Origin: Chitinophaga cymbidii
GTDB lineage: Bacteria; Bacteroidota; Bacteroidia; Chitinophagales; Chitinophagaceae
NCBI RefSeq assembly: GCF_007992715.1
Contig: NZ_BKAU01000004.1
Coordinates: forward strand, 496,001 to 560,000
Direction of reading: 5' to 3'
Length of the DNA stretch: 64,000 bases
Each line of letters starts with the position of its first letter. The first letter of the stretch is position 1. Below, one piece after another: positions 40,792 to 59,059 of this stretch. Under the pieces are notes generated by a model. It did not search any database and was not told the origin of the DNA. It worked only from the letters and a program-made list of their open reading frames with translations. The position numbers were made by a program, and so were the translations under genes.

Positions 40792-43719
40792 ATGTGTTCA
40801 TTTGTACGGATCAACATCACGTGCCTGCTGATGTATTGCCTGGCCCATGCCCATGCCGCCGGGGCCACCGGCACCCGCCTCATGCAGGATTCCACGAAGC
40901 CCGTGAAGGCTCCGCCCGTTACCCGAAAGGCGGACACCTTAATAATGGAGCGCGAAAACATTTATCCTTATTCCTCGCTGCAGCAGCTCATAAAAGGCAA
41001 TGCCGCGGGCGTGTATGTACAGGAACCCAGCGGAGAGCCTGGCAGTAACATGAGCATGTTCCTCAGAGGCACCGCTATTCCCATTATCAGCAGCCGCGAC
41101 ATTTATGAAGCGCAGCCCACCGTCATCCTCGATGGCATCCCCATGATCATGGACCATCCTTTTGCCTTCGACATCCAGTTATATGATTATAACAGGATCG
41201 GGCCGGCTACCAACATCCTCTCTTCCATCGACCCGGACAATATCGCTTCCATTGAAGTGATAAAGGATTTCGGAAGGGCCGCGATGTACGGCCCCAGGGC
41301 GGCCAACGGCGGGGTGATACTCCTCACCACCAAAGCTCCGGTAACGGGTAAACGAAGGATCAGCTTCAATACATATTTCGGCATGGTACAAAGGCCGTCC
41401 ACATTCACCACGAACGCCAAATTCGAGAACGATTTCCGCCAGCCGTTCTACGATAAGTACGCGAACACAGACCAGTTGCAGAACTATCCGCTGTACCTGC
41501 GCGACTCCACGAACGACGCATATTATGGCCCCTCCAACTGGTCTGACCTTTACTTTAAGAACAGGATGGTATATGGTGTGAACGCCAGCCTTTCCAGCGG
41601 TACCGAACGCGCGAACTTCATGTTTGCCGTAGGCAACCGCAAAACGAACAACCCGGCGGATGGCGCCCGCCTGGACCGCTATAACGCCATGTTCGAGATC
41701 AACATGGTGCCCATCCGCGGCTTCACCGTGTCCGCCATGATCAACGGCACCCGCCTGGAAAGGACCCGCAATACTTTCCTCCGCGACCGCTTTGCGGAAA
41801 TGCAGTACATGCCGGACCTGAGCAACCCGCTTCCCCCGAATAAAGATTATTACGCGCGTTTCCGGAATGAATACACCAAGTCATTCGATGAAAACAAGCT
41901 CAACGAAGTGAACGGATATTTCAAAATGAACATCCGTTTCTCCGACAAGTTCCAGTTCAATTCCGCCTTCGGCTTCGATTACAACGAAGGTCTGCGGGAC
42001 CTGTTCTATCCCAGCACATTGCTGGAAACAGTGAACTATGTTTCCAATTATTTCGGCTATAACCAGCGCGTGTTCTTCGATAACACCGTAACGTTCCGGC
42101 ATCAGTGGAACAAGGTGCATGACCTCACCATTGAAGCGGGTGAAGTGTTTCAGTCGGATTACAACCGCTACAACTACGCATACGCTTACAAAGGCCCGAA
42201 CGACCTGATCCGCGTGAACCTGCTCAATACCGAGGACGGCGACAATAAATTCCGCACCAAGTCCTTCCGCCACGAGCTGACCTATATGTTCCTGGACCAG
42301 CACCGCCACCGCCTGTTATCTTTTTACGGCCGCGGCGCCTACAAGTACAAGGACCTGCTGGACTTTTCCGTGTTACTGCGGGCAGACGGTTCTTCGAGCG
42401 CGCAGCCGGACAACTGGTGGATGTTCGCGCCTACTTTTGCCGGCGGCCTGAACGCCAAACAACTCTGGCTGGCGGACCACGCAGGCATCAGCAGCCTGCG
42501 CCTGCACGCCAGCTGGGGAAGGGTAGGACGATTATTGCCGGACGACCGCTTTGGCGAAGGCCCGCAATACACGTCTGACCTTTCATTCAGCAACAACCCC
42601 GTTCGCTTTTCCTATAACGGCTTCCCCGGCATGAGCCGTGCTTATTCCTCCGGGTATATCGGCTACGGTATCAAATGGCCGTATACCGATCAGCTGGAAG
42701 TAGGTTTGGATGCAGGTTTCATACAGAACAGGCTCAACCTGTCCCTTGCCTTTTATGACAGGGTAGACAAAAATATGCTGCTCGGCATTCCTTTCTCCGC
42801 GGAGTATGGCTACAATATTCAGTACAAGAACGGCATGAAAGTGCGCAATAGGGGCGTTGACCTCTCCGCGCAAATGTCCATGCTGCCAGATGATTACAAG
42901 GTACGGTGGGTAGCAGGTGTGAACGCGAACTACAACCGCAACACCCTGCTTGCCCTGCCGGATGGATTGCAGGAACTGGTGGTGGCCAACGGCACAAAGC
43001 TCCTGAAGGTGGGCCATTCCATCGATCAGTACTGGCTGCTGCAAAACGACGGTATTTATAACCGCGATGGCGATGTGCCCGTAGAGCCGGGTTCACAGAA
43101 ACAGCTGAACTACAAAGGTATTCCTATGATCGCCGGTGATCCGAAATGGAAGGATCAGAATGGCGATTATGTGATCGATGATAATGATAAAAGACTGACG
43201 GGCCATGCATTGCCGGTTTTCTCCGGCGGCTTCAACAGTGATGTGAGCTACCGTGGCTTTACCCTTGGTTTTGCATTCTATTATACCCTCGGCCGCAAGA
43301 TCATGAACCATGAAATGGCGAACCGCATGGACTTCGTGAACAGGGAAGGAAAGATAGACATGAGCGCCGTGAAGGAGATCACCTTCTGGACGAAAGCGGG
43401 CAACTACGATCAATACCCCGTTTACAATCCCTGGAGCACCGTCATTCCTTACCGCACGGACCAGGACCTGTTCCTGGAAAATGGTTCCTTCCTCAAGCTG
43501 CGCACCCTTTCGCTGCAATATGATATGACGCAGGCAAAATGGTGGAAGAAGAACGGCGCGCTGCACAGGCTCACCATTTACGGCACCGGCAGCAACCTTT
43601 TCACCATCACGCCTTACACCGGCGGTGATCCCGAGCTGGTGGACTACAACGGCTTTGACAATGGTTATGGCCTGCCCATCCCGAAGACTTATACCATCGG
43701 TTTAAAAATGGAACTCTAA
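40792..43719 (+). CDS. SusC-like TonB-dependent transporter without the N-terminal extension
   Basis: 975 aa. A signal peptide (about 1-22) is followed almost directly by the plug (SSLQQLIKGNAAGVYVQEPSGEPGSNMSMFLRG; IEVIKDFGRAAMYGPRAANGGVILLTTK) and a barrel ending in TYTIGLKMEL. The carboxypeptidase-like domain and the usual VVVGYG TonB-box region of SusC proteins are absent. It is the first gene of an eleven-gene run and lies 1 nt before the susD-like gene. How it contacts TonB is unclear; a short segment near DTLIMEREN may serve. Role: import of an unknown glycan or glycoside. Confidence 0.93.
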   Translation: MCSFVRINITCLLMYCLAHAHAAGATGTRLMQDSTKPVKAPPVTRKADTLIMERENIYPYSSLQQLIKGNAAGVYVQEPSGEPGSNMSMFLRGTAIPIISSRDIYEAQPTVILDGIPMIMDHPFAFDIQLYDYNRIGPATNILSSIDPDNIASIEVIKDFGRAAMYGPRAANGGVILLTTKAPVTGKRRISFNTYFGMVQRPSTFTTNAKFENDFRQPFYDKYANTDQLQNYPLYLRDSTNDAYYGPSNWSDLYFKNRMVYGVNASLSSGTERANFMFAVGNRKTNNPADGARLDRYNAMFEINMVPIRGFTVSAMINGTRLERTRNTFLRDRFAEMQYMPDLSNPLPPNKDYYARFRNEYTKSFDENKLNEVNGYFKMNIRFSDKFQFNSAFGFDYNEGLRDLFYPSTLLETVNYVSNYFGYNQRVFFDNTVTFRHQWNKVHDLTIEAGEVFQSDYNRYNYAYAYKGPNDLIRVNLLNTEDGDNKFRTKSFRHELTYMFLDQHRHRLLSFYGRGAYKYKDLLDFSVLLRADGSSSAQPDNWWMFAPTFAGGLNAKQLWLADHAGISSLRLHASWGRVGRLLPDDRFGEGPQYTSDLSFSNNPVRFSYNGFPGMSRAYSSGYIGYGIKWPYTDQLEVGLDAGFIQNRLNLSLAFYDRVDKNMLLGIPFSAEYGYNIQYKNGMKVRNRGVDLSAQMSMLPDDYKVRWVAGVNANYNRNTLLALPDGLQELVVANGTKLLKVGHSIDQYWLLQNDGIYNRDGDVPVEPGSQKQLNYKGIPMIAGDPKWKDQNGDYVIDDNDKRLTGHALPVFSGGFNSDVSYRGFTLGFAFYYTLGRKIMNHEMANRMDFVNREGKIDMSAVKEITFWTKAGNYDQYPVYNPWSTVIPYRTDQDLFLENGSFLKLRTLSLQYDMTQAKWWKKNGALHRLTIYGTGSNLFTITPYTGGDPELVDYNGFDNGYGLPIPKTYTIGLKMEL

Positions 43720-43720
43720 C

Positions 43721-45232
43721 ATGAAGCAACTATTCATATCTACGATCTTACTGGGCTGCCTGCTGACGGCAGGTTGCAAGAAGCTGCTGGACATCGATTC
43801 AACCCACGCAGTGTCTGAAGAGAACTTCTGGAACTCCCATGAAGATACCCGCACGGCGCTGATCAGCGTGTACGGCCTGATGCGCGCCGCGCTGGCGGAC
43901 AACAATGCGTTCTGGATGTACGGCGAGCTGCGGAACGGCGACTTTGTGGCGCTGCAGCGGCAGGACCTGAAGGCGATCATCCGCGGCGATCTCCGGGCGC
44001 AATACCCGCTGCTGCAATCGCTCTCCAACTGGCGCCGTTTCTATGCCGTGATCAACGCCGCCAACATGTTCCTGGAACACGTCGGGGAAGTGAAGGAACG
44101 CGATCCCAAATACACGGACCAGAACATGCGGGTAGACATTGCGCAGATGCGCTTCATGCGTGCCTACACTTACTTCTGCCTGGTGACCGTATGGGGCGAC
44201 GTGCCGCTGATCACCGCTTCGCACGATGGCGTGTTCACCAGCAAACCCCGCGAAAAGCAGGAAACGGTGCTGGCCTTCATTGAAAAGGAAATGCTGCAGT
44301 CCGCCGAAGATCTGCCATACCAGTACAGTGCGAACGACCCCCAGCAGCTGGGTAACTACTATAACGAAAGCAACGCCCGCTGGATGGGTACCCTCGCCCG
44401 CAAGCTCACCGCTTACGCCATGCTCGCCCACGTGGCCGCCTGGCAGGGCAAATATGTAGACGCCTCCGTATACGGAAAGTTTGTGCTGGACAACTACGGA
44501 AAATCCGGCAGCTACTACCTCAGCACTGAAGACCTTACCCGCAGGGGCGGTTACTTCCACTGGAAGCAGCACAACCACATCCTCGGCTTCAACTTCGACT
44601 GGGGCCACGTGGACGCATCCTTCTCCGGTCACATCGAAGAGCTGACCCTCGCCCGGCCGGTGGTCAACAAAGCGCTGCCAGATATTTATGTGCCGAAAGA
44701 CACCATCCTCTCGGTGTTCAACCTGCCGCAGGACGAGCGCTTCAGCCTGGACACCCTTACCGGCGCCCCCACGTCCCAACGCTATTTCACCAGCTTCGCC
44801 AGCCAGGTGCCCATTTTCAACAAAGTAAAAGAAATACAGGACGGCGGCACCACAGACCCCTCATTCCGCATTTATTCCAGCAGCATCCTCGTTACGCGGC
44901 TGGAAAACATCGCGCTCCTGCAGGCGGAAGCGCTGGCCGTCATCGGTCAGCAAACGAGCGCCATCGAACTGCTGAACACGATCCGCGATCTGCGCAAGAT
45001 CAAAAAATATGACGCCAGCGAAGGCGACCTCATCGACGCCATCTTCCTCGAGCGCCGCAAGGAGCTGATGGGAGAGGGCTGGCGCTGGTTCGACCTGATC
45101 CGCTACCAGAAGATCAAACAGAATAATCCCGCTTTCCTCGAGCTGATCCGCAACGGCGGCATCTACTGGCCCGTGGCGAACGACGTACTGACACAGAACC
45201 CATTGATCAAACAGAATCCTTATTGGCAATGA
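43721..45232 (+). CDS. SusD/RagB-like lipoprotein
   Basis: 503 aa. Lipobox Cys19 (LLTAGC-KKLLDIDS), the LLDID start of the mature protein, TPR-like helices and the C-terminal FLERRKELMGEGWRWFDLIRYQ signature identify SusD. It partners the SusC-like protein encoded 1 nt upstream. Its stop overlaps the start of the fasciclin gene (ATGA at 45229-45232), so these genes are translated in sequence. Ligand unknown. Confidence 0.94.
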   Translation: MKQLFISTILLGCLLTAGCKKLLDIDSTHAVSEENFWNSHEDTRTALISVYGLMRAALADNNAFWMYGELRNGDFVALQRQDLKAIIRGDLRAQYPLLQSLSNWRRFYAVINAANMFLEHVGEVKERDPKYTDQNMRVDIAQMRFMRAYTYFCLVTVWGDVPLITASHDGVFTSKPREKQETVLAFIEKEMLQSAEDLPYQYSANDPQQLGNYYNESNARWMGTLARKLTAYAMLAHVAAWQGKYVDASVYGKFVLDNYGKSGSYYLSTEDLTRRGGYFHWKQHNHILGFNFDWGHVDASFSGHIEELTLARPVVNKALPDIYVPKDTILSVFNLPQDERFSLDTLTGAPTSQRYFTSFASQVPIFNKVKEIQDGGTTDPSFRIYSSSILVTRLENIALLQAEALAVIGQQTSAIELLNTIRDLRKIKKYDASEGDLIDAIFLERRKELMGEGWRWFDLIRYQKIKQNNPAFLELIRNGGIYWPVANDVLTQNPLIKQNPYWQ

Positions 45233-46821
45233 TAAAAACTAGTAAAGCAATGCGCAACATAACAATGCTCGCTGGTCTGCTCGTTCTCCTGACCTACCTG
45301 GGCTGTAAAAAAGATAAGGGTTTTTATGCGTATGAAAACCAGTTGAAAAGCTATGACGGGAACATCTACGATTTCCTGAAAGAGCAGCATCAATATGATT
45401 CTTTCCTGCTGGCAGTGGACCGCGTGAACCTGGGCGACAGCCTCCGGGATGGCGCCTATACCGTGTTTGCGCCCGCCGATGCCAGCTTTAAACAGGCGGT
45501 TGATAATATGAACACGCTCCGCGACCTCCAGGAACGCCCGCTGATGCACATCGGTACCGTTCCGGTGGAACAGCTGGATTCACTCGTCAGCCGCTACATT
45601 GTGCGCGGCGTGATCCGGGCGGACAGCATGCTGTTCCAGGACGGTCTAACGATGCCGGCTATACGGTACGGCTACCTGATGCACGGCAAGCTGAACTACG
45701 CCGATGCCGAAGGGCACGTGAAAGGCGGTCCCGGTGTGATCCGCTACAGCGATACCAAAGGCGTGATCTACACCAACCGCTGGAGCTCCGCCAACACCAT
45801 GGCCATCGATATCCGCACCACCAACGGCTTTGTGAACATCCTCGAAAAGGACCACATGTTCGGTTTCGACGAGTTCATCCGCAGAATGAACCCCACCAAC
45901 TCAACGCCCTATAACGAATATCCCTTCTACGTGCCCGGCGTCATCGGCCTGGAACAGTACGACCGTGGCGGCCCCCGGGTGGCATACCAGGATCATTCCC
46001 GGGATAACTACGGCGGCAAGCGCCCCACCGAATGGGTAGACGTGACCAACGCGGAAGAGAACGGTATGAAAGTAGGATGGACGGAAGCGGACGAATGGCT
46101 GAAATATACGGTAGACATTACAGAAACCGGCGAATATTACTTTACGCTGCGGTACGGCAGCCCCAACGACAACGGCCGCATTCACCTGGAACTGGACGAC
46201 CAGCCCATTGTCGGCAGTTTCCTCCTCATGCCTAGCTCCGGCGGCTTCAACCGGTTCCAGGATATCACCACCACCATTCACCTGACCGCGGGAAAGCACG
46301 TGCTGAAGCTGTACGAAGACTTCGCCAACTACGATCTCCGCTTTATCAAATTCCTGCCGAAAGACCGGCCCCTGCCGATCCCTGGCACCATCACCCTCGA
46401 GGATTTCATTCCCGGCGGCGAAGGTATTGGATACCATGATAACAACACCGGCAACAACGGCGGCAAATACCGTCCCAATGAAGGCGTGGACATAGATCTG
46501 ACAAGGAATGAAGGCGGCGGATATCATATCGGCTGGATGGATACGGGTGAGTGGATGAAATACAGTGTGGACGTGAAGAACACCGGCTTCTACAATATTT
46601 ATGTGAGAACAGGCACGCCCAACAACAACCGCAAATTCAGGATAGAGTTCAACGGTGAGAACAAGACGGGCACAGTGGTCATTCCCAATACGGGGGATTA
46701 CAGCAACTGGGGCACCACCGTTACCACCGTGCACCTGGAAAAAGGGCCGCAGGAAATGGTCTTTTTTGTGGAAGACGGCGGGTATGATACAAAGGATATC
46801 ACCATCCGTCCATTGAACTAA
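45229..46821 (+). CDS. Surface lipoprotein with fasciclin domain and two CBM6-like modules
   Basis: 530 aa from the ATG at 45229, which overlaps the SusD stop; a TTG at 45223 is unlikely. Lipobox Cys26 (LTYLGC-KKD). An N-terminal fasciclin domain (about 45-215; YTVFAPADASFKQAV, SRYIVRGVI) is followed by two carbohydrate-binding-module-6-like repeats (YDRGGPRVAYQD, VGWTEADEWLKYTVD; and GYHDNNTGNNGGKYRPNEGVD, IGWMDTGEWMKYSVDV). It probably acts as the SusE/SusF-like glycan-capture lipoprotein. No catalytic signature was seen. A fasciclin lipoprotein recurs at the same place after the second SusCD pair. Confidence 0.85.
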   Translation: MIKTSKAMRNITMLAGLLVLLTYLGCKKDKGFYAYENQLKSYDGNIYDFLKEQHQYDSFLLAVDRVNLGDSLRDGAYTVFAPADASFKQAVDNMNTLRDLQERPLMHIGTVPVEQLDSLVSRYIVRGVIRADSMLFQDGLTMPAIRYGYLMHGKLNYADAEGHVKGGPGVIRYSDTKGVIYTNRWSSANTMAIDIRTTNGFVNILEKDHMFGFDEFIRRMNPTNSTPYNEYPFYVPGVIGLEQYDRGGPRVAYQDHSRDNYGGKRPTEWVDVTNAEENGMKVGWTEADEWLKYTVDITETGEYYFTLRYGSPNDNGRIHLELDDQPIVGSFLLMPSSGGFNRFQDITTTIHLTAGKHVLKLYEDFANYDLRFIKFLPKDRPLPIPGTITLEDFIPGGEGIGYHDNNTGNNGGKYRPNEGVDIDLTRNEGGGYHIGWMDTGEWMKYSVDVKNTGFYNIYVRTGTPNNNRKFRIEFNGENKTGTVVIPNTGDYSNWGTTVTTVHLEKGPQEMVFFVEDGGYDTKDITIRPLN

Positions 46822-46844: not shown

Positions 46845-47888
46845 ATGCAAAGGAAAATACTAACGGTCATCATATTTGTGCTGGCAGCGGCCGCCTGCCG
46901 GAAGTGGGCGCCGGACGACCTGGACTACCTGAGCCCCCGCGCAGTGTACAACCAGAAAGTGTTCAGTCCCGTTATGGGCAGGACCACGCTGTATTCCCAG
47001 ATATTCAATACAGACAATTCCAGCACGCCCATTCAGTTCAAGATCACCAACGTACGTTACAAAACAACCGGCGAGCCGGCAACGGACCTCGGAAAGCCGG
47101 TGCAGACGCTCGTATGGAAGCAGGCCTACACCGGCGAGGAAAAATCGCTCGCGGAGATAGATGCGAAGCGGGTGGTGGAAACGCACCCGGCCTGGGAGAT
47201 CCGCCCCAACTCCGGCGAGTTCATTCTCTGGGCGGCAGCGGACAACTCCATCCTGCGTGAGCAACCGGATTCCGGTTATCTCTTCGATGTGGAAGCCTCC
47301 AACTCCGGCGGCAAGAACGTGTATACGGACCTGGCGCTGATGCCCTACCGCGAACAGCCCTACGCGCCCTATGAATATGACGCCGTAACCGGTCTTCAGC
47401 GCGCGAACTATCCCAATCCTTCCGATTCCTCCGTGTTCAAGCTGATCTACAACAATCCCGGCGTGCAGAACGTGACAGATGATGAAACGAACCTGGGATT
47501 GCGCAGCGACAGCGTGCGTGTGCTGTTCAACAGAAAGGGCGACGGCAACTCGCTCACCTTCAAGTTCATGGACAAGGACTCACTGCCCATAGACCCCGCG
47601 CGGTTCAACCGCACGGCCTGGGATACCTTAGTGCACGGCTTCAACCGCGTTACCACCAAAACGGAAGTGCGTTATGATGTGGCTTATCCCATCCCGCTCA
47701 TTCGCTACCGGACGAAATACACGAATGGAGACGGCTCGCAGGCATATGTGAAATTCATCTGGGACCGCGTTGGTTTCGGCAATATCCGCGAAACCTGCTC
47801 CATCGACTTTTCCTTTTCCATATACCGGAAAGGCGACTGGGAGATCATATTCTTCTTCCAGCATAATCCAAGGTTCCGCGACGAATAA
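46845..47888 (+). CDS. DUF5007-like lipoprotein
   Basis: 347 aa. Lipobox Cys18 (LAAAAC-RKW). The opening DDLDYLSPRAVYNQKVFSPVMGRTTLY and the AYTGEEKSLAEIDAKR and FILWAAADNS segments look like the DUF5007 family of PUL-associated lipoproteins; the name is from memory. The fold seems beta-rich. Function unknown; presumably a surface accessory to the SusCD complex. It lies 23 nt after the fasciclin gene and 15 nt before the next susC, inside the operon. Confidence 0.8.
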   Translation: MQRKILTVIIFVLAAAACRKWAPDDLDYLSPRAVYNQKVFSPVMGRTTLYSQIFNTDNSSTPIQFKITNVRYKTTGEPATDLGKPVQTLVWKQAYTGEEKSLAEIDAKRVVETHPAWEIRPNSGEFILWAAADNSILREQPDSGYLFDVEASNSGGKNVYTDLALMPYREQPYAPYEYDAVTGLQRANYPNPSDSSVFKLIYNNPGVQNVTDDETNLGLRSDSVRVLFNRKGDGNSLTFKFMDKDSLPIDPARFNRTAWDTLVHGFNRVTTKTEVRYDVAYPIPLIRYRTKYTNGDGSQAYVKFIWDRVGFGNIRETCSIDFSFSIYRKGDWEIIFFFQHNPRFRDE

Positions 47889-47903: not shown

Positions 47904-50900
47904 ATGATAAACTCTACACTCATGAAATTTCCAGGTATTGCAGGCTTATTGCTGTGTATATTGTCCTGCGCCGTTGCACAGGCACAGACACCGGCAAAGA
48001 TCCAGGTAAGGGGCGTGATCAGGGATGCCGAAACCAATGAGCCGTTGGTGGGCGTGAGCATCCAGGAAGGTACGCCGCCCAAACCGGTGGGCGTGACCAA
48101 TGAGAATGGCGCATTCTCTGTGATGGTACCCGCGAACGGCACGCTGCTGTTCCGTTACATCGGTTTTTCCGACTACAAGGTCAAGATTAACAGCAAAAGA
48201 GAGATCAACGTGCGGCTGTCCGTGAACGAGAACAAGCTGAATGAAACAGTGATCATCGGCTACCAGCGTAAAACCCGCGAAACCTCCACCGGTTCCACGG
48301 TGAAGATCAGCGGCAAGGACCTGCAGGACATTCCCGTGTCTAACGTAGAACAATTATTGCAGGGCCGCGTGCCGGGCCTCAACATCCAGAACAACACCGG
48401 CACCCCCGGCGGCCGCGGTATGATACAGATCCGCGGTTTGTCCAACATCGACGTGAAAGGCAATGGTAACGACGCTTTCCTGTCGCCGACCTCTCCGCTG
48501 TACGTGATCGACGGGGTGCCCATTGAGGCGGATGCCAACTTTGAATACGGTTACCAGTCCGTCGGACCCGGTGTAAGCCCTCTCTCGCTCATCCCGCAGG
48601 AAGACATCGAGAGCATGGAGATATTGAAAGATGCGCAGGCAACGGCCCTATACGGTTCAAGAGCGGCCTACGGGGTGATCCTCATCACCACCCGCCGCGG
48701 CAGCTCCGCCGTGCCGCGTGTGCGCTACACCGGCAACTTCTTCGTGAATACGCCACCGAAGCTGCGGGAGACCATCGGCGGGGTGGAAGAGAGACGGCTG
48801 CGCATCAACCAGATCTACAACAGCAAGAACCTGGACGATATCTACCGCATTTCCGCCACGCCTTTCCTGGCGGACAGCCTGAACCCTTACTACAACAACT
48901 CCACCAACTGGCAGGACATCTTCTACCGCACCACCTATAACCAGTCGCACAACGCCAACATCAGCGGCGGCGATCCCAAGTTCAACTACAAAGTAGACCT
49001 CGGTTATTACCACGAGAATGGCGTGATCCGCAATACCGGCTTCGACCGTTATTCCATCAACACCAATATGCTGTATCAGCCTACGCCCAAGCTCCGCGTG
49101 CTGACCACGCTTTCCACGCAGGTTGGCAAAAGGAACAAGGGGGACGGTAACGGCCTTATCCAGAACGGGGTTTCCAGCAATGCCAACGCATCGTCGCTGC
49201 TGCCCGGCCCTTCGTTCTACCAGAGCACTTCATCCGTATTGTCCGCGCTGGGCACAGAAAACGATAACAAAACAGCGAACGTGCGCACCAGCGTAGACAT
49301 CAACTACCAGTTTGTGCCCGGTCTTAACGCGGCCACTTTCGTCAGCTACGACTATTCGTCCAACACCGAAGACCGCTTCACGCCCGCGGCGGCGCGTAAC
49401 GACTTTTCACAGGTGTATGCGTACAACGACCGCAAGTTCACGTTGAGCAACCGTAACATGTTGTCCTATTTCCTCTCGCTGAAGGAGAAGCATAATTTTT
49501 ACATCGCCTTATTCAACGAAATTCAGAACCGTGGCTTCCAGGGCCAGCTGATCCAGCAGGAGAAAACGCCGAACGACCAGTACCGCGGCCCGCTGGGTTT
49601 TGATGGATGGGCCTCCCGCGGCGGCGGCCTCCTGGACAACTACAGCAAGGGGCACATCGCCTCCTTTGCCGGAACGTTCAGCTACAACTACAAACAAAAG
49701 TATGTGCTGGACGCGAGCTACCGGCTGGACGGCTCCTCCGGCAGCGGCTTTGAAGATCCCTATTCAAAAAACCCCTCCGTGGGCGTCCGCTGGAACTTCA
49801 ACAAGGAAAACATTTTTACGGAAAGCTCCTGGCTCACCTACGGCTCCATCCGCGGAAGCTGGGGGCAGAACATCGTGCCGCAGGGCGATATCTTCGCGAT
49901 CTACGGAACCTATGACCCGCGCGGGACCTACAACGCGAATCCCCGCCTGGGCATCAACTTCGGCCAGCTGCCCAACACCTACCTGAAACCCACCACCACC
50001 ACGCAATACAACTTCGGTATGGAGCTGGGGCTGTTCAACAGCCGCGTGGAAGTGCTCTTTGACGCATACTACAAAACGGTGCTGAACCTGCTGCGCAATA
50101 AATCCGTGTCGAACATGACGGGCTTTGATTTCATCACCACGAACGAAACATCGCTCATCAACTACGGCTACGAGCTGATGCTCACGTTCCGCCCGCTTCC
50201 GCGCACCGCCGCCGTGAACTGGACCATCTCCGTGAACGGCGCTATCAACAAAGACATCCTCACCAGCCTGCCTGACGGCGCGCGGCAGCTCGTGCAGTTC
50301 GACGGTAACACCTCGCAGCACATTCTTTACCGCGTAGGCCGCAACTCGCTCACCAACTACCTCTTCAATACGATCGGCGTGTATTCGTCCGACAAGGACG
50401 TACCTGTAGATCCCGCTACCGGCCTGCCTTACCGCAACGGCGGCGGCACCAGTTACTTCCGCGCCGGCGACCCGATCTGGCAGGATGTGGACGGCGATTA
50501 CATTCTCACCAATAACGATTACATCGCGGCCGGCAACTCGCAACCCCTTGTTACAGGCGGTTTGCAGTCCAGCCTGAACTGGAAGAGCTTTTCCTTTAAC
50601 ATGAGCGCTTCCTACACCGCCATCCGCGATGTGCTCAACAATGCGCTGGCGCAAAGGATGCAATACCTCGGCAATCCGTACGACCCGAAGGCGATCGTGG
50701 ATTTCAATACCGTGAATTACTGGAAAGGGCAGGGCAGCAGCGCTGCATACCCGAATCCGTTCGATTACGTGCGTTACTCGCAGATCAGGCCCTACCGCTA
50801 CGATCAGACGCTGATACAGGAAGACGGGTCTTATTTCAAGATCAACACCATCTCGCTGGCTTACCTGCTGGACAGAACGTTCACGCAGCGCTACGGCCTG

Positions 50901-51056: not shown

Positions 51057-51073
51057 TCATAAAAGCATTGAAT

Positions 51074-52606
51074 ATGTTTCGCAGGATAATATATATCACG
51101 GCACTGCTCACGCTGACCACGCATTACGGGTGCAAGAAGTTCCTGGACGTGAAGCCGCTGGACCGCTTGTCCGGCAACGCATTCTTCCAGACGCCGGAAG
51201 ATGTGGAGCAGAATGCCTGGGACATTTACGGCCTGTTCCGGGATGCTACCGGCGCATTTCCGTTGTTCTCCGCCGCCGGCGAGTTACGCGCGGGCATGAT
51301 GGGCGAATCTCCCCAGAAGAACGACGGGAACGATCGTTCATTCGTTGGCGTTATTGCGCAGAACGACCTGATGAATGTGGTGAACACCCCCTCCGGCAAG
51401 GATTTCTGGAATATCTTCAACTTACGCCGCTTCACGGAATGGAAACCTTTTTACCGCATCATCCAGGCCAGCAACATCCTTCATTATGAGCTGACGCGCA
51501 GGCAGATCGCCGGCCTGTCCGCCGACGATGTGCGCAAATACCAGGCGGAAGCGGTGTTCATGCGTTGCCTTACGTACTTCATCATGGTCAGGCTCTGGGG
51601 CGATGTGCCTTATTTCACGGACGCCTATCATGAAACGCCGCTGCCCCGCGAAAAGATGACGGTAGTGGTGAATAATTGCATCGAAGAGCTGAACAACACC
51701 AAGAACGACCTGCCCTGGACCTTCACCGACCCCGCCTACCGCGGCGCGCGCGCCAGCAGGGGAGCGGCGCTGGCCCTGATCATGGAGCTGGCCATGTGGA
51801 ACGCCGGTTTCGATAAGGCCAATGCAAGGAAATATTACGAGCAAACGGCCGCCGCCGGAAAGGAGCTGGAAGAAAGCGAATCATACCGGCTGCTGCCCAT
51901 CGAGGAATCTTTCACCATCTTCAAAGGCCGTTCGGAAGAAAGCCTTTTTGACATCGTGATCAATTCCAACTACGGCGAAACGCTGGGCGATAAATGGAAC
52001 GACCTCTCCGAGTTCGTAACACACTGGCCATACAAGCGCCCGGCGCACAACCACCAGTACAGCTTTACGTTCATCCGCTCCGAGCACCTGCGCCGCCTGT
52101 ATCCCTCCGGCGTACCGGACGCCCGTACCGAAATGTGGTTCGATGCGCAGATGTACGCGAACGACGGCACTTTCCTCTTCCTGAAATATAACAGTCTGCA
52201 CGAACAGGGCAACGCGGACGTGAACGTGGACAACGACCTGATCGTGCTGCGATACGCCGGTTCCCTGCTGATATATGCCGAAGCGCTGGCGGAACTGGGT
52301 ACCCAGGACGGGGAAGCCACCCGTTTGCTGAACCTGGTGCGCGGCCGCGCAAGAACGACGCTGTACCAGGGCGGCGGCGGGCCGGCCCTGAAAGAAGCCA
52401 TCTTTACCGAAAGGGTGAAGGAGCTGATGATGGAAGGACATTATTATTTCGATTTGGTGCGCACCGGCAGGGTGATGAACGCGCAATGGTGTTATTACCC
52501 GCTTACCCAGGCGCAATTCGAGAACGGCGGATGGACCTGGCCGCTCAGCCCTTCCGTGCTGGATAACAACCCGTACATGCAACTGAATAATTATTGGTTA
52601 CGATAA
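51074..52606 (+). CDS. SusD/RagB-like lipoprotein, second of the operon
   Basis: 510 aa from the ATG at 51074; a TTG two codons earlier is less likely. Lipobox Cys20 (THYGC-KKFLDVKP) and the FLDVKPLDRLSGNAFF mature start are classical SusD. C-terminal LIYAEALAELG and FTERVKELMMEGHYYFDLVR complete the family signature. Partner of the SusC encoded 17 nt upstream. Confidence 0.95.
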   Translation: MFRRIIYITALLTLTTHYGCKKFLDVKPLDRLSGNAFFQTPEDVEQNAWDIYGLFRDATGAFPLFSAAGELRAGMMGESPQKNDGNDRSFVGVIAQNDLMNVVNTPSGKDFWNIFNLRRFTEWKPFYRIIQASNILHYELTRRQIAGLSADDVRKYQAEAVFMRCLTYFIMVRLWGDVPYFTDAYHETPLPREKMTVVVNNCIEELNNTKNDLPWTFTDPAYRGARASRGAALALIMELAMWNAGFDKANARKYYEQTAAAGKELEESESYRLLPIEESFTIFKGRSEESLFDIVINSNYGETLGDKWNDLSEFVTHWPYKRPAHNHQYSFTFIRSEHLRRLYPSGVPDARTEMWFDAQMYANDGTFLFLKYNSLHEQGNADVNVDNDLIVLRYAGSLLIYAEALAELGTQDGEATRLLNLVRGRARTTLYQGGGGPALKEAIFTERVKELMMEGHYYFDLVRTGRVMNAQWCYYPLTQAQFENGGWTWPLSPSVLDNNPYMQLNNYWLR

Positions 52607-52616: not shown

Positions 52617-53333
52617 ATGCAGCAGATCAACAGGCTACCTGTTTTAACTGTTTTACTCGGCATCCTGGTGTGGATGAGCGCCTGTAAGAAAGATGAGTAT
52701 TACAGGGACTCCGGCGTGCACGACCCCAATTTTAAAGGCAGCACCATGGATTACCTGGATGCGGTGCCTTTCCACTTTGACAGTGTGGCGGCCGTGGTGC
52801 GGCTGGCCGGCATGGAAGAAGTGTTCCGCGAAGATACGCTCACCTTCTTTTCACCAACGGACCGCAGCATCGGCCGGCTGGTAAAACGGCTGAACCAGAA
52901 CCTCTATACGCTCGGCTATGATACCATCGTGAACCTCGAAGACGTGCCCGCGGTCATCTGGAGCCAGTACCTGCAGACCTACATGTTCCGCGGCGCCAAC
53001 CAGCTCAAGGATTATCCGCAGATCGATTACAACCTCCGCTCCATCTATCCCGGGCAAGGTTATCTTTCCTGGAACGGCACGGCCATGAACATCGGCGTGA
53101 TCTATAACGATGATAACGGCGTAAAATATGTAGGCTACCGCCAGCTGTCCATCGCCTACATCCCGAACCCCGCCAGGCCGCTCGATAACTGGTTCCGCAC
53201 AGATGTGGCATCCAGCAACATCCTCACCTACAACGGCGCGGTGCATGTATTGCGGGACGATCATAACTATTTCGGATGGGACTACAGCAAATTCCTCGCA
53301 GACATGCAGGTGATAATGGATTCCGATGATTGA
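52617..53333 (+). CDS. Fasciclin-like lipoprotein
   Basis: 238 aa. Lipobox Cys23 (VWMSAC-KKDEYYRDSG). A single fasciclin-like domain (about 40-225) is recognisable from LTFFSPTDRSIGRLVKRL, SQYLQTYMFRGANQLKDYP and ILTYNGAVHVL. It resembles the N-terminal part of the fasciclin-CBM6 protein of the first half and occupies the same position after SusD. Likely a surface accessory for ligand capture or complex assembly. It starts 10 nt after the SusD stop. Confidence 0.85.
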   Translation: MQQINRLPVLTVLLGILVWMSACKKDEYYRDSGVHDPNFKGSTMDYLDAVPFHFDSVAAVVRLAGMEEVFREDTLTFFSPTDRSIGRLVKRLNQNLYTLGYDTIVNLEDVPAVIWSQYLQTYMFRGANQLKDYPQIDYNLRSIYPGQGYLSWNGTAMNIGVIYNDDNGVKYVGYRQLSIAYIPNPARPLDNWFRTDVASSNILTYNGAVHVLRDDHNYFGWDYSKFLADMQVIMDSDD

Positions 53334-53352
53334 TAAAAACAGAACCACGAAC

Positions 53353-54939
53353 ATGAAACTAACGAAATATACCGGCCTGGCCTTGCTCGCCTTTGGCGTG
53401 TTCATGGCCTGCAAGAAGGACAATAAAACATTCCCGGACCCCTATGCAGGCGGACGCAAGCCGCTGGGCGTGCAGCTCAGCACCGATCCGCCCACGCCCG
53501 GAGATGGAGCGCCCGGCACGGTGATCCGCTTCAAAGCTACCGGCCTCGTGCCGCACAAGGATTCGATCAGCTTCAACTTCAACAGCGAAGCCGGTGAGAT
53601 CGTATCTGTAGACTCCGCCGGCATCCAGGTGAAAGTTCCGGCAACGGCCAGCACCGGCGTTTCCTCCATCACCATCGGCGATCAGATCTTCTTCGGCCCC
53701 GTTTTCTCCGTGAAAGGCAAGCTCGAAGTAGACCCCAACTTTAAAGTGGTCACCGGCTCCAACAACCGGATCTCCGATGTGTACCAGTACCCGGACGGGC
53801 GTCTTTTATTCACAGGCTATTTCTCGGACTTCGACCGCAAAGGCGTGGTGAAGCCGCTGAACCGCATCGTGCTTACTTCCCGTGACGGTGAAGTAGACCG
53901 TACGCTGCTGTCCGGCAAAGGCGCGGACGGCGGGCTTTCCTCCATCGCCGTGCTGCCTAATGGCAAGCTGGTGATCGCCGGCGGATTTTCATCATACGAT
54001 ATTCACCAGGCGGAAATGCGCAACATCACCGTGCTGAACAACAACGGCTCGCTGGATACCGCTACGGTGAACACTTTCACCAAGCAGGACACGCTGCCTG
54101 CTTTCAACGGCGGTACGGACGGCGGCATAGACAAGGTATTCGTGCATAACAACATGATCACCGCGGTAGGAGGGTTCAACTACTACCTGCAATATGTTTA
54201 CGACAAATCAGATTACCTGATGGAGCGTGACTCGCTGATCACGGACAGTACGATGGTACGCCAGCTGATCCGCTTTTACCCGGACGGATCGCTGGACTCT
54301 TCCTTCAACTACGACCTGGCCCGCCACCGCAGCTTCGACGGCGCCAACGGCCCTATCTTCGACGCATTCATGCAGGACGACGGCAAGCTGATCATCGTAG
54401 GCCGCTTTACAAGATACAACGGGCAGGATGCGCCTTTCATCGCGCGGCTCAATACAGATGGTAGTCTGGATGCGGGCTTCGGTGGACTGGGCGCGGACAA
54501 TGGCATCGGCAGCATCCGCTACAACGCGGTTACGCAGAAATACATCCTGGCCGGCAACTTCCGCAAATTCAACGGACAGGACTACAACGGCCTGGTGCTG
54601 CTGAACAAGGACGGTACGGTAGATCCAACCTTCCAGCCGCTGCCGATGGGCAACAACGACAGCTATTTTCATGCGCAGCAGCTGAACAACGGCCTCATTG
54701 TAGTGAACGGTTACTTCCGCAATTATGGTCCCGTTCACCGCACAGGGCTGATGATCCTGAATCCCGACGGTACGCTGGCTACCGGCTACAACAACGTCGG
54801 TGATTTCGAGGGATCGCTGTCGAAAGTATTTGAAACGAAGAACTCTTCCGGTCAAACGCAGGCATTGCTGCTCGGCAGCTTTTACAGGTTCAATGAAAAA
54901 GATGCCGGCAACATCATCCGGTTGTTATTAAAAGAATAA
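53353..54939 (+). CDS. DUF5008-like lipoprotein with TIG and delta-60 repeat regions
   Basis: 528 aa from the ATG at 53353, which directly precedes the lipoprotein signal (Cys20 in FMAC-KKD); the ATG at 53326 overlaps the previous stop. An IPT/TIG-like beta domain (about 35-115) is followed by repeated blades resembling delta-60 repeats (LPNGKLVIAGGFSSYD, QDDGKLIIVGRFTRYNG, ILAGNFRKFNGQDYNG), suggesting a beta-propeller. I recall this layout as DUF5008 in PULs. Role unknown; probably surface binding. Confidence 0.8.
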   Translation: MKLTKYTGLALLAFGVFMACKKDNKTFPDPYAGGRKPLGVQLSTDPPTPGDGAPGTVIRFKATGLVPHKDSISFNFNSEAGEIVSVDSAGIQVKVPATASTGVSSITIGDQIFFGPVFSVKGKLEVDPNFKVVTGSNNRISDVYQYPDGRLLFTGYFSDFDRKGVVKPLNRIVLTSRDGEVDRTLLSGKGADGGLSSIAVLPNGKLVIAGGFSSYDIHQAEMRNITVLNNNGSLDTATVNTFTKQDTLPAFNGGTDGGIDKVFVHNNMITAVGGFNYYLQYVYDKSDYLMERDSLITDSTMVRQLIRFYPDGSLDSSFNYDLARHRSFDGANGPIFDAFMQDDGKLIIVGRFTRYNGQDAPFIARLNTDGSLDAGFGGLGADNGIGSIRYNAVTQKYILAGNFRKFNGQDYNGLVLLNKDGTVDPTFQPLPMGNNDSYFHAQQLNNGLIVVNGYFRNYGPVHRTGLMILNPDGTLATGYNNVGDFEGSLSKVFETKNSSGQTQALLLGSFYRFNEKDAGNIIRLLLKE

Positions 54940-54951: not shown

Positions 54952-56679
54952 ATGAACAGCAAGTTATGGATAGCGCTGATACTGGCAGGTCTTGCAGTGA
55001 TCGCCTGCAACAAAGGATTTGACCGGCTGATAGAACCAAGGGAATATGAAGATACGACCGGCGTCACCAGCAGAACGCCCAAGGTGCTGATGCTGGTGGT
55101 GGACGGTGCGCGCGGGGAATCCGTCCGCGACGCGAAAGCGCCGACCCTGCAGTCGATGCAGGACCACGCGATCTATTCCTGGCACAGCATCAGCGATACG
55201 CTCAGTATAAACGCAACCGCCTGGGCAGACCTGCTGACGGGCGTGCGCAAGGAAAAACACCGCGTTACGAACAAGGATTTTTCCGGTAACCGCCTGCAGG
55301 AATATCCCGTATTCTTTTCCCATATCAAGGAACGGGACCCCTCATTCCGCATCGGGGCGTACAGCTCCGCGGATTCCCTCGGCACCATGCTCATCACCGG
55401 CGCGGACGTGAACGAGACATTCGGGAACAACGACGAAGCGATGGTGAGCAGCCTGCTGGACGAACTGAAGATCGATACGGCCGGGCTTGTGTTCGGCCAG
55501 TTCAGCGGCGTGGCGATTGCCGGCAACACGTACGGCTACGACATCAGCCACCCGGAATACAAAGCGGCCATCCTGAAAGCAGACCAGCAGATCGGCAGCA
55601 TTATGACCGCATTGAAGGCCCGCGCCACCTATGAGCAGGAAGACTGGCTGGTAGTGGTGACCTCCGGCAAAGGCGGGCCCTTCCAGATAGACCCGGGCGA
55701 GGATGATGGCACCATTCTCAGCAATACCAAAGTGAACACCTTCACTTTCTTTTATTCCCCGCGGTATACGCCTAATTTCATCGACCGGCCGTATACGGGT
55801 AACCGTTATTCCGGCAAGGCCGTGCGCCTTTATGGCGATAATGCTTCCAATGCTGTATTCGCTACCATCGAAGAAGGCCGTGAAGACTACAACCTGGCGG
55901 ATACCAATGAGGTGACCATCTCGCTGAAACTCAAGAAAAACCGCACGCCCTACGGCGATTTCTCCTATACCTATCCTTCCGTGATGGGCAACAACATGTC
56001 CCTCGACTGGTGGAACAACACCGGCTGGAACATTTCACTGGAAGGGAACGGATGGGGCGTACACTTCGGACAGAACGGAAAAGGCTTCAACATGGCTACC
56101 GCCGCCAATATCGCGGATGGCCGCTGGCACGACCTCACCACCGTTTTCCTGAACCGCGATAACAAACGTTTTATCCGCCTGTATACGGACGGTGCTTTCA
56201 ACCGTGAAATGGATATCACCCAATACGGCAGCTTTGATACGGACGCGCCGCTGACGCTTGGCTTTATGCCGGGGAACGTAACGGACAACCAGCGGTGGCT
56301 GAACGCCTATATCACGGAAGTGAAGTTCTGGCGCGCCGCGTTGCCGGACAGTGTGGTGGCTAACTACGTATGCAGTCCCGAGTTGCCGTCTTCCCACCCG
56401 TACCGGGATTACCTGATCGGTTACTGGACCTGTAAAGACGGTTTCGGTGGCGTATTCAAAGACCAGAGCGACTCGCGGCACGATTTCCAGATCAAGGGAG
56501 GTTATGTGTGGGAAGACTTCAGCGATCTGATGTGCCCCACGTCCGCCACCAACCTTTCACAACTGGTGCCCCAGCCGATAGATGTTGTGCGGCAGGTGAT
56601 GAACTGGTTGCAGATACCGGCGGACACGCGGTGGAAGCTGGACGGACGTGTATGGGTGACCTCCTATACCGGCATTTGA
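54952..56679 (+). CDS. Alkaline-phosphatase-like lipoprotein with LamG and DUF4983-like C-terminus
   Basis: 575 aa. Lipobox Cys19 (AVIAC-NKG). The N-terminal half (about 42-290) has the phosphodiesterase/alkaline phosphatase superfamily pattern: LMLVVDGARGESVR with a metal-binding Asp, then ATAWADLLTGVRKEKHRV with a plausible Thr nucleophile. A laminin-G/concanavalin domain follows (about 310-470; GRWHDLTTVFLNRDNKRFIRLYTDG) and a C-terminal segment ending LDGRVWVTSYTGI, as in DUF4983 proteins. Several metal ligands of active enzymes are not obvious, so it may be catalytic or a binding relic. It is the only enzyme-like surface protein of the operon. Confidence 0.8.
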   Translation: MNSKLWIALILAGLAVIACNKGFDRLIEPREYEDTTGVTSRTPKVLMLVVDGARGESVRDAKAPTLQSMQDHAIYSWHSISDTLSINATAWADLLTGVRKEKHRVTNKDFSGNRLQEYPVFFSHIKERDPSFRIGAYSSADSLGTMLITGADVNETFGNNDEAMVSSLLDELKIDTAGLVFGQFSGVAIAGNTYGYDISHPEYKAAILKADQQIGSIMTALKARATYEQEDWLVVVTSGKGGPFQIDPGEDDGTILSNTKVNTFTFFYSPRYTPNFIDRPYTGNRYSGKAVRLYGDNASNAVFATIEEGREDYNLADTNEVTISLKLKKNRTPYGDFSYTYPSVMGNNMSLDWWNNTGWNISLEGNGWGVHFGQNGKGFNMATAANIADGRWHDLTTVFLNRDNKRFIRLYTDGAFNREMDITQYGSFDTDAPLTLGFMPGNVTDNQRWLNAYITEVKFWRAALPDSVVANYVCSPELPSSHPYRDYLIGYWTCKDGFGGVFKDQSDSRHDFQIKGGYVWEDFSDLMCPTSATNLSQLVPQPIDVVRQVMNWLQIPADTRWKLDGRVWVTSYTGI

Positions 56680-56713
56680 AAAAATGAATTTTCTGACTTA
56701 CAAACCGTTCCAT

Positions 56714-58081
56714 ATGAACATCAGGCTGATCCTACTTTTTGCGGCCATATTCGTTGCCTGTGAAAAAGATAAAAAATTCCAGGATGAGGCAATGGGCCCC
56801 GTGAACGTGTCTTTCGCCAGCACGGCGGGCAAGATCAACGTTCCGGATGAGAACAACTACATCCTGACGACGGACAAGCTCAGCATTCCGCTGAATATCG
56901 TGATGTCGGCTTCCGCACCGAAATATTTCTCGCTGAACATCAGTGTGGACAATGATACCATCCAGCAGCTGATAGATGAGCAGGCATTGCCAAATACGGT
57001 GTTGCTGGATGAATCCTATTACGAGCTGCCCAAGGGCGCGGATATCCGCTTTGGCCTGGATTCGCTGCCGGTAATGCTGGAAGTGAACATGCAGGCGGTA
57101 GAAAAGCATTTCGGCAAGGACCTCGCACTGGCGGTGCGGCTGGATAATGTTACCAAGCAGAATATATTATCGCCCACGGGGAAGATGGCTATTGTGGTGA
57201 TCAAAACTTCCGAGCTGATCAGTGAAGACGACCTTCATTATCTTTCCTTTACGGAAGCCGGTAACATACTGACGTTGCCGTCTTCCGACGATCATACGCT
57301 CGGTGAGGTGGAAGTAGTGCTCCCCATCAGCCTCTCGCTCGGTGGTGTAGCCGGTGGGGCTTTTACCCTGAGTGTCAGTGAAGCGGCGGACACCGCGCAG
57401 CAGCTGATCGACGACGGCACCATTACAGATGGGGTGCTGTTGAGAAAGGACGATGACTTTACCTTGCCGGAAAATGCTTCATTCGACGCATTTACGAATA
57501 CCGCGAAGTTCAACCTGCGGGTAAAAACGGCCTCGCTGAAAAATAACGTCACCCGTAAACCGGTGGTGGCGCTGACGATCAGCGATCCTACAAAGCACCT
57601 TATAGACGAGGCAAAGAAAACGCTGGTGATGGTGCTTGATCCGAACAAGCTGATAGAAGTGGATATAACGAATACGAATATACGCTATACCACACAGCAT
57701 GAGAATGGCAACACCAACGAGAATTCACCCAAGCTGATCGACAACAATTCAAATACCAAATTCCTGCTGGGCAGCTTCTCATCCTCCTGGATGAAGCTGG
57801 AGTTCGCCGAGCCCACAAGCTCCGGCGCTTACACCATGACTTCCGCCAATGACGCGATAGACAGAGATCCCAAAGCATGGAGAATAGAAGGTTCGAATAA
57901 TGATGTGGACTGGGTGATACTGGATCAGCAAACGGAACAGTTTTTCGGATCGCGTTTCCAGACCATGAAATATTATTTCCCTGATAAAACGCCGTATAAA
58001 TATTACCGTTTGTACATTACTGCCCTCAGGAAGGGCACCACGTTCCAGATGGCGGAATGGCGCCTGTTGAAAACACCCTAA
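56714..58081 (+). CDS. DUF1735-repeat lipoprotein with F5/8-type C-terminal domain
   Basis: 455 aa from the ATG at 56714 that precedes the lipoprotein signal (Cys16 in FVAC-EKD); the ATG at 56684 gives an odd leader. Two DUF1735/BT_3987-like beta domains (about 25-165 and 175-305; compare LLDESYYELPKGADIRFG with LLRKDDDFTLPENASFD) are followed by a galactose-binding-like discoidin domain (about 315-455; NSNTKFLLGSFSSSWMKLEF, WRIEGSNNDVDW). Typical glycan-binding surface lipoprotein of PULs. The ribokinase gene starts at the base after its stop. Confidence 0.88.
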   Translation: MNIRLILLFAAIFVACEKDKKFQDEAMGPVNVSFASTAGKINVPDENNYILTTDKLSIPLNIVMSASAPKYFSLNISVDNDTIQQLIDEQALPNTVLLDESYYELPKGADIRFGLDSLPVMLEVNMQAVEKHFGKDLALAVRLDNVTKQNILSPTGKMAIVVIKTSELISEDDLHYLSFTEAGNILTLPSSDDHTLGEVEVVLPISLSLGGVAGGAFTLSVSEAADTAQQLIDDGTITDGVLLRKDDDFTLPENASFDAFTNTAKFNLRVKTASLKNNVTRKPVVALTISDPTKHLIDEAKKTLVMVLDPNKLIEVDITNTNIRYTTQHENGNTNENSPKLIDNNSNTKFLLGSFSSSWMKLEFAEPTSSGAYTMTSANDAIDRDPKAWRIEGSNNDVDWVILDQQTEQFFGSRFQTMKYYFPDKTPYKYYRLYITALRKGTTFQMAEWRLLKTP

Positions 58082-59059
58082 ATGCTGTTTATGAAGAGCA
58101 CATTCATCCAAACTAAACAAACCCTCAGGCCCCGGATCACTGTTGCAGGCAGCTCGGCTACCAACATGGTGATCCGGGCCCACCACCATCCCGTTCCCGG
58201 CGGAATGGTCATGGGCGATCAGTTTTTCACGACGCCGGGCGGCAAGGGCGCCAACCAGGCGGTGACCGCCGCGCGTCTCGGCGCCGCGGTGACTTTCCTG
58301 TCCAGGATCGGCAACGATCTCTTTGGCCGGCAGGCCATCCAGCAATTGATGGAAGAAGGCATCAACACCGATTTTATCCTCTCTGACCAGCGCCTGGCTT
58401 CAGGTGTGGCTTTTGTTACGGTGGATGCGGATGCCCGCAGCAGCATGACCATCGCGCCGGGCGCCAACAGCGCCTTTTCGCCCGAAGAGCTGCTGCCCGC
58501 CGCCGCGCAGATCGGTCAGTCAGATTACCTGTTACTGCAAATGGATATTCCTGAAGAAACCGTGCTGCAGGCCGCGAAGATAGCGGCCGGCCGGCACGTT
58601 CCCGTGATGCTGGACCCCGCGCCGGCATATGCCTGCAGCGAGGAGCTGCTGCAATACGTAACCGTATTCACGCCCAACAGGGCGGCGGCCTCACAGCTTT
58701 CCGGCATCGCCGTTACCAGTATGGAAAGCGCTGTGGAAGCGGCGGAGATCATCTGCCGCAAAGGCGTGAAAGCGGTGGTGATGACGTTAGGGGAGCAGGG
58801 TGCATTGGCGCTGCACGGCGATCAACTGCATGTTATTCCGCCCGTTCCCGTGGAAGCGGTGGATACCACCGCGGCAGGAGATGTATTCAATGCCGCGCTG
58901 GCAGTAGCGCTGGCCGAACAGAAAAACCTGCGTGAAGCAGCCGTTTTTGCAGCGAAAGCCGCCGCGATCGCCGTCACCAGGTGGGGAGCGCAGGCAGCCG
59001 CACCATACAGAAGAGAGATGGAGAAGAAAATTTTCCATACATCAAACACATCCGTTTAA
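58082..59059 (+). CDS. Ribokinase-family sugar kinase (PfkB), last gene of the operon
   Basis: 325 aa. PfkB signatures: NMVIRAHHHPVPGG and TTPGGKGANQAVTAARLGA near the N-terminus, and the ATP/catalytic motif VDTTAAGDVFNAALA (about 259-273) with the catalytic Asp. It phosphorylates ribose or a related pentose or deoxy-sugar in the cytoplasm; the substrate is not fixed by sequence. The ATG directly follows the stop of the preceding gene, and no other catabolic gene accompanies it. It is the only clearly cytoplasmic enzyme of the operon. Confidence 0.9.
   Translation: MLFMKSTFIQTKQTLRPRITVAGSSATNMVIRAHHHPVPGGMVMGDQFFTTPGGKGANQAVTAARLGAAVTFLSRIGNDLFGRQAIQQLMEEGINTDFILSDQRLASGVAFVTVDADARSSMTIAPGANSAFSPEELLPAAAQIGQSDYLLLQMDIPEETVLQAAKIAAGRHVPVMLDPAPAYACSEELLQYVTVFTPNRAAASQLSGIAVTSMESAVEAAEIICRKGVKAVVMTLGEQGALALHGDQLHVIPPVPVEAVDTTAAGDVFNAALAVALAEQKNLREAAVFAAKAAAIAVTRWGAQAAAPYRREMEKKIFHTSNTSV

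Follow-up and report, generated by a model that had tools for sequence, protein, structure and literature searches.

Polysaccharide utilization loci (PULs) are usually read as a SusCD pair together with the enzymes for one glycan, and the prediction of their substrates leans on these enzymes. An operon of Chitinophaga cymbidii raises the question of what is imported, and what cuts it, when two SusCD pairs stand together without a glycoside hydrolase (GH). The operon lies at positions 40792-59059 of a 64-kb stretch (contig C4:496001-560000 of a 6.63 Mb genome), which is called the window here. It probably, though far from surely, serves as the half of a distributed glycan regulon that handles capture and import at the outer membrane; the hydrolases of this regulon would be encoded in trans and tied to the operon by LacI-type control.

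All eleven open reading frames (ORFs) of the operon, named as in Table 1, were confirmed on the + strand with the ends given in an earlier note on this DNA, and their spacing ranges from a 10-nt overlap to a 23-nt gap. The family labels of that note agree with the Pfam/NCBIfam domain calls, with two provisos. The F5/8 match falls below the cut-off, and Fas2, which gave zero Pfam matches itself at E<=0.001, is placed through its homologues in loci L080 and L173, which match PF02469. The listed ORF of Fas1 starts with TTG and has alternative start codons a few codons further in. When the translations were inspected by eye, a lipobox was found in the eight proteins marked as lipoproteins in Table 1, as had been claimed. 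An adjacent susC-susD pair is present twice, whereas Pfam/NCBIfam detected no glycoside hydrolase, and no other CAZyme, among the eleven proteins. In the same way, no hybrid two-component system (HTCS), sigma/anti-sigma or LacI gene was found in the operon or directly adjoining it; an AraC gene lies 2.3 kb downstream. The picture of a large binding and import capacity in a single co-directional unit without a glycosidase is therefore supported.

This arrangement is strongly conserved. In tblastn searches, the order SusC1-SusD1-fasciclin-DUF5007-SusC2-SusD2-fasciclin-DUF5008 was kept in 118 of 120 loci (L029-L065, L086-L165 and three joined Sphingobacteriaceae stretches). Removal of ten duplicates leaves 110 distinct operons, chiefly of Chitinophagaceae and Sphingobacteriaceae, and 108 of them keep the order. 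Five loci (L066-L068, L082, L083) had been excluded before counting because they were single modules or, for L068, cut by a contig end. Of the two exceptions, L088 reaches a 10-kb contig limit and shows the order as far as the contig goes, and L053, from an assembly of 530 contigs, holds the second half only, adjoining other genes. For these first eight genes, such a conserved order rules out chance. The earlier note had also asked whether homologous loci hold a glycosidase between the genes that was merely lost here. Across the 116 loci with all eight ORFs called in order (duplicates and four putative Bacteroidaceae loci included), the 812 gaps between core genes reach 191 bp at most, counted from the first start codon of each ORF, so that true gaps may be somewhat longer. 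No measured homologue has room for a glycosidase between core genes, and its loss from the middle of the operon was rejected.

These counts depend on how relatives were found. The small fasciclin protein gave matches in 34 of 59 genomes searched (its own included), all from one genus of the 23 sampled, and most of the 40 stretches fetched lay around such matches. A DUF5007 alignment run against named genomes yielded 173 relatives, the best 80 of which were used; among these 80 are Sphingobacterium, Pedobacter, Mucilaginibacter, Niabella, Chitinophaga, Flavisolibacter, Lacibacter and others, and loci without DUF5007 are invisible to this route. In a phylum-wide sample, DUF5007 was present in 5 of 395 genomes, the own genome counted, so the cassette is patchy. 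In one contig (L080/L081, G416:C30) the cassette was seen by eye to adjoin rpoB-rpoC- and ribosomal-protein-like genes directly.

Within the operon, the phosphatase-like lipoprotein had been proposed to open a phosphorylated, ribose- or pentose-containing polymer. This phosphodiesterase (PDE)-like protein has a profile match to a bacterial nucleotide pyrophosphatase/phosphodiesterase (NPP), and its AlphaFold2 model (mean predicted local distance difference test, pLDDT, 87.2; predicted template modelling score, pTM, 0.58) matches 7n1s in Foldseek at E 2.6e-11, which gives it a predicted fold of the alkaline phosphatase superfamily. The NPP active site, which we take from XaNPP to comprise a Thr/Ser nucleophile and the metal ligands D, D, H, D and H, was located by alignment, the last histidine not being mapped. 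Only D51 of the six tested residues is kept in the window protein, with N87 at the nucleophile and A188, N192, G239 and K240 at four ligands. Among 119 PDE-like sequences, 2 keep all six residues and 113 two or fewer (2 and 101 of 107 after deduplication). The two intact proteins, from L053 and L060, were scored in the same alignment, so that the test is able to detect an intact site. Compared with the NPP phosphodiesterases XaNPP and ENPP, the window protein shares the predicted fold and the PF01663 match but has five of six tested residues replaced, the nucleophile included, and is fused to LamG and DUF4983 domains. Judged by these residues it looks like a pseudoenzyme, and the phosphatase was rejected as substrate opener.

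The hydrolases may instead be sought elsewhere in the genome. Two copies of GCTAAATCGATTT stand upstream of SusC1, one of them inside the palindrome CTAAATCGATTTAG, and the CG-centred promoter palindrome of a LacI operator is thus present in the window. Of 108 distinct regions upstream of SusC1, 27, that of the window included, contain a perfect CG-centred palindrome no shorter than 12 bp (resampling control: mean 2.8, maximum 8 in 200 runs), the commonest being GTAATCGATTAC, TAAAACGTTTTA and GCAAACGTTTGC. In the own genome, the operator 13-mer with at most one mismatch matched 26 times over both strands, and its reversed control 4 times. The 26 matches correspond to 23 places, three of which were counted on both strands; 21 lie outside called ORFs and 2 inside, while about 90% of a 268 kb sample of the genome is ORF sequence. 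Genes behind these sites include three of GH92, one of GH125 (two sites), GH127 and GH78, a gene for a LacI protein, several for SusC, one for FecR with SusC next to it, and a fasciclin operon with a single module. Six matches are exact (two at the operon and one each at the single module, one GH92 gene, the GH127 gene and the FecR gene), and the rest have one mismatch, for instance that of the GH78 gene at 36008-36020. The single module (L066 from 5337; own genome from C4:264337) consists of SusC, SusD, fasciclin and DUF5007-like genes and carries its exact GCTAAATCGATTT 175 bp upstream of the SusC ORF. The genome has two candidate LacI genes, at G000:C2:622662-623693 and C1:452042-453079. 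LacI proteins presumably bind the operator-like sites, and one regulator may read them all. Capture of a ready-made ligand, as suggested earlier, is not required, since glycosidase genes elsewhere in the genome carry similar operator-like sites.

A hint at the substrate comes from another family. DUF5007 was found in 5 of 399 genomes of one family. Two things suggest that this family is Bacteroidaceae, namely the RNA family Bacteroidales-1, which led to it, and the match to 6euf given below; in the first genus sampled in search of a Bacteroides genome, 0 of 61 had it. Four of the five loci, from two genera, were read, and all four have the eight-gene core (30-50% identity to whichever query from the window, Chitinophaga or Sphingobacterium matched best), followed by a PDE-like gene, an M60-like peptidase gene and a second PDE-like gene. 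Pfam was run on one of the four, that of G892. It showed an HTCS and GH43 proteins immediately upstream of the cassette, and on the downstream side GH28 and GH35 at a distance of 17-21 kb. One of its GH43 proteins matches PDB 6euf, which we take to be a B. thetaiotaomicron enzyme, at 920 bits, and entries named galactan 1,3-beta-galactosidase or exo-beta-1,3-galactanase at 119-159 bits. The surroundings of this one putative Bacteroidaceae locus are of arabinogalactan type.

The corresponding locus of B. thetaiotaomicron is PUL5 (BT0262-BT0290), which was compared by product names only. The published names of BT0269-75 and of BT0277-79 are consistent with the cassette (PMC10434189). BT0262-90 appears in a published table as an arabinogalactan PUL, and the mutant in its HTCS grew to 78.9% of wild type on arabinogalactan (PMC3243724). 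BT0268 is named an arabinogalactan PUL gene (PMC5061871) and has a promoter responsive to arabinogalactan (PMC6874557). In addition, BT4244, an M60-like protein of the same species, is an O-glycopeptidase (PMC3267712, PMC11992087). Together, these data point to glycoproteins or proteoglycans as the substrate class. The eight-gene core is common to both kinds of locus, but PUL5-type loci have HTCS and GH43/GH35 genes around it, whereas the Chitinophaga operon has LacI-type operator-like sites, a GH78 gene as sole enzyme neighbour across an intervening gene, no M60 gene, and a ribokinase gene.

According to the favoured reading, a LacI-family regulator would read GCTAAATCGATTTAGC-like operators and co-induce the operon and the hydrolases, for which GH92, GH125, GH127 and GH78 of the own genome are candidates. 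These enzymes would cut the glycan of complex glycoproteins or proteoglycans of the arabinogalactan-protein kind. The oligosaccharides or glycopeptides so released would be bound by the lipoproteins and both SusD proteins and imported through the two SusC barrels. Each SusCD pair would have two surface lipoproteins as partners, a fasciclin protein and either DUF5007 or DUF5008, and the PDE-like/LamG and DUF1735-F5/8 lipoproteins would serve as extra surface binders rather than enzymes. DUF5007 gave no match by sequence to solved structures; a fold search with its predicted structure returned common beta-sandwich matches, the best of which, a weak resemblance of the N-terminal domain to the SusE-like protein BT4661 (Z 9.2 over 95 residues), is near background. 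For this strain two candidate substrates stand side by side, arabinogalactan protein by homology and mannose- and beta-arabinofuranose-bearing glycans by the enzymes of the candidate regulon.

Several observations weigh against this reading. The palindromes are partly shared by descent among close relatives, so that their excess is overstated. The operator was spotted late and tested afterwards, paralogous LacI regulators have look-alike operators, and about ten of the site places precede genes without an evident link, such as that of an AcrB-type pump. Each of four other Chitinophaga genomes has GTAATCGATTAC at a single place outside the operon. It precedes a GH2 gene in two of them and a SusC gene next to GH95 in the other two, with Pfam identification in one genome of either pair; this recurrence is not above the control (0 to 3 per strand), and the regulon is therefore not confirmed by the four-genome test. 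The regulon enzymes of the own genome (alpha-mannosidases, GH127 and GH78) are not arabinogalactan-backbone enzymes, and the sole good relative there of the GH43 arabinogalactan enzyme (45% over 306 residues) sits in another PUL. No PF13402 match was found genome-wide, so that the M60 member of the PUL5-type cassette is missing. For most sister cassettes, the adjoining genes were identified by eye. Finally, a 2026 paper gives the substrate of PUL5 as 'unknown' (PMC13088901).

The genes that follow the core allow a different view of the substrate. A PDE-like gene comes directly after the core in 92 of 110 distinct operons, and 68 of 109 have a same-strand gene for an M60-like peptidase no more than 6 kb downstream; PF13402 was confirmed in the first three M60-like proteins scanned. 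Stretches of sufficient length often show a second PDE-like gene next, and in window-type loci the DUF1735-F5/8 protein replaces the peptidase. M60 was rejected as a universal enzyme, as 41 of the 109 operons show none within 6 kb, many stretches ending 3-5 kb downstream. Among 72 M60-like proteins (duplicates and the fusion in L140 excluded), the HExxH motif is kept in 52 and lost in 11, with 9 left uncalled. The losses concern four putative Bacteroidaceae, five Niabella and two Sphingobacterium proteins, apparent pseudopeptidases found at L173:13518-15635, L175:11423-13618, L177:10125-12245 and L180:6104-8221 and in L125, L136, L143, L151, L159, L110 and L139. Sister operons thus pair SusCD with an M60-like peptidase, as do the M60-like glycopeptidase PULs of B. 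thetaiotaomicron (BT4240-50; BT3013-15), and the PUL of BT3015 is likewise described as free of CAZymes (PMC11992087). The window differs from these in its genome without M60 and in its doubled SusCD pair.

It is accordingly conceivable that the operon performs a RagAB-like import of peptides or glycopeptides as a source of nitrogen and carbon, with the M60 protein of the sister operons as principal enzyme and the glycans incidental. The frequency of the peptidase gene and its mostly intact motif speak for this. Nevertheless, we regard it as unlikely: the window genome lacks M60, the motif is lost in all four putative Bacteroidaceae loci, glycosidases flank the G892 locus, operator-like sites are common to the operon and glycosidase genes, and a GH29 fucosidase gene stands beside one Sphingobacterium cassette (L076), on the other strand.

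Another possibility is that two independent PUL transporters with different substrates came to lie side by side by tandem duplication. Single four-gene modules made of SusC2-like, SusD, fasciclin and DUF5007-like genes do exist, in the own genome (L066) and in L067, L082 and L083, and for this reason the double cassette may have arisen by doubling of such a module. The two barrels are nonetheless not alike. In the window and 36 further loci (E<=0.01), CarboxypepD_reg families were found in 0 of 37 SusC1 proteins, all 37 of which have the Plug domain, while CarboxypepD_reg_2 was found in 34 of 37 SusC2 proteins. By eye, SusC1 is also without the ExVVxGY-type stretch that precedes the plug in SusC2, and many SusC1 copies have at its place a D[ST]-hydrophobic motif that might be an alternative TonB box. 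That both halves stay together in one order in several families, and that SusC1 and SusC2 retain different N-terminal architectures, argues against independence, which appears improbable. The distances of SusC1 and SusC2 are correlated in a mirror-tree comparison (r=0.88); this value was set aside as a sign of joint function because co-inheritance alone suffices to explain it.

The same asymmetry leads to a bolder proposal, which we put forward tentatively and hold to be rather doubtful as yet. The two SusCD pairs could be obligate, non-interchangeable halves of one machine, in which SusC1D1, without CarboxypepD_reg and without the canonical TonB-box region, and SusC2D2 would form a mixed complex. 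It would be held by the paired fasciclin, DUF5007 and DUF5008 lipoproteins, with retired enzymes acting as lectins, and one glycoconjugate would be bound across both halves. With SusCD- and SusCDEF-type complexes the operon shares the SusC barrel, the SusD lid and several accessory lipoproteins; it differs in having two non-equivalent pairs, a SusC1 without CarboxypepD_reg, fasciclin partners and no glycanase.

The ribokinase had been taken as a clue to the substrate. The gene is present and abuts the operon, as it does in the closest relative, but it is weak as a clue: among 37 same-genus loci it is labelled in one, that of the closest relative (G033), the other window-type stretches ending about 1.5 kb past the DUF1735 gene. 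It was rejected as a member of the unit and as key to the substrate, and on this comparison of loci it is a late, lineage-specific add-on. Read by eye, a macrodomain-like short ORF lies slightly downstream of the operon in six (L032-L037) of the nine window-type loci L029-L037, and microbial PARG-like ORFs lie near the second GTAATCGATTAC site in two genomes (L211:7596-8465, L212:9035-9889); together with the ribokinase they hint at ADP-ribose chemistry. Phosphoesterase genes stand beside some paralogous cassettes (L054, L057, L060), namely a calcineurin type, an endonuclease/exonuclease/phosphatase with LamG, and a type I PDE with all six residues. Capture of a phosphorylated, ribose- or ADP-ribose-related ligand whose sugar is handled by the ribokinase could draw on these genes, yet it is very improbable given the rarity of the ribokinase gene, the degenerate phosphatase-like protein and the arabinogalactan-type enzymes around the scanned putative Bacteroidaceae locus.

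Table 1. Features of the operon and its surroundings, in positions of the window
Feature	Position	Strand	Description
Operator-like site 1 (LacI-type)	40621..40638	.	Core CTAAATCGATTTAG, perfect 14-bp palindrome; same palindrome upstream of the operon of the closest relative (L029)
Operator-like site 2 (LacI-type)	40664..40681	.	Second copy of GCTAAATCGATTT
SusC1	40792..43719	+	SusC/RagA TIGR04056; TonB-dependent barrel without N-terminal CarboxypepD_reg
SusD1	43721..45232	+	SusD family; lipoprotein
Fas1	45223..46821	+	Fasciclin and two CBM6/35 stretches; lipoprotein
DUF5007	46845..47888	+	Lipoprotein; predicted beta-sandwich domains
SusC2	47904..51056	+	SusC/RagA TIGR04056; CarboxypepD_reg domain; LNETVIIGY stretch ahead of plug
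SusD2	51068..52606	+	SusD family; lipoprotein
Fas2	52617..53333	+	Fasciclin-type lipoprotein, placed by homologues
DUF5008 and DUF5122 beta-propeller	53326..54939	+	Lipoprotein
PDE-like protein	54952..56679	+	PF01663, LamG_3 and DUF4983; lipoprotein; apparent pseudo-phosphodiesterase, active site lost
DUF1735-F5/8 protein	56684..58081	+	BT_3987-like_N (DUF1735) and F5/8-like match under cut-off; lipoprotein; candidate surface glycan binder
Ribokinase	58082..59059	+	TIGR02152, 317.9 bits (cut-off 299.65); lineage-specific addition outside the conserved unit
GH78 alpha-L-rhamnosidase	36021..38660	+	Apart from the operon; candidate regulon member

The GH78 gene ends 2.1 kb upstream of the operon, with an opposite-strand gene (38663-40201) between them. 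It was rejected as a conserved neighbour: in named Chitinophaga loci, the gene beyond the relative of this intervening gene is not labelled GH78 where it is partly visible, the remaining stretches being too short. Just upstream of the GH78 gene, a calcineurin-like phosphoesterase (MetallophosN/C) is encoded at 34162-35739. Elsewhere in the window, at 15894-17444, lies the gene of a sulfatase (PF00884) with an SGSH_C domain. A separate small PUL at 21-9236, 31 kb upstream, consists of an HTCS, SusC, SusD and a GH30 protein (PF14587). The best solved relative of this last protein is 3clw, and an endo-beta-1,6-galactanase was also matched (E 1.5e-12).

Literature searches for DUF5007, for DUF5008, DUF4983 or DUF5122, and for combinations of fasciclin with SusD (and SusC) gave no account of the cassette, although one may stand in Cartmell 2018, which other papers cite for the biochemistry of arabinogalactan PULs. 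The cassette is built from known protein families, and its B. thetaiotaomicron counterpart is already recognised as a PUL; the enzyme-free, strictly ordered variant with two SusCD pairs is new as far as the literature was searched. While the enzymes around it change or leave, this large import cassette retains its gene order in several families of Bacteroidota, and as the phosphatase-like remnant looks dead, the substrate is invisible to enzyme-based prediction. The operator sites offer an alternative route to it. If the unlike SusCD pairs form one complex, this would be a new architecture of TonB-dependent glycan import, and it would matter for an arabinogalactan locus in a human gut commensal, the surface proteins of which are little described in the literature searched.

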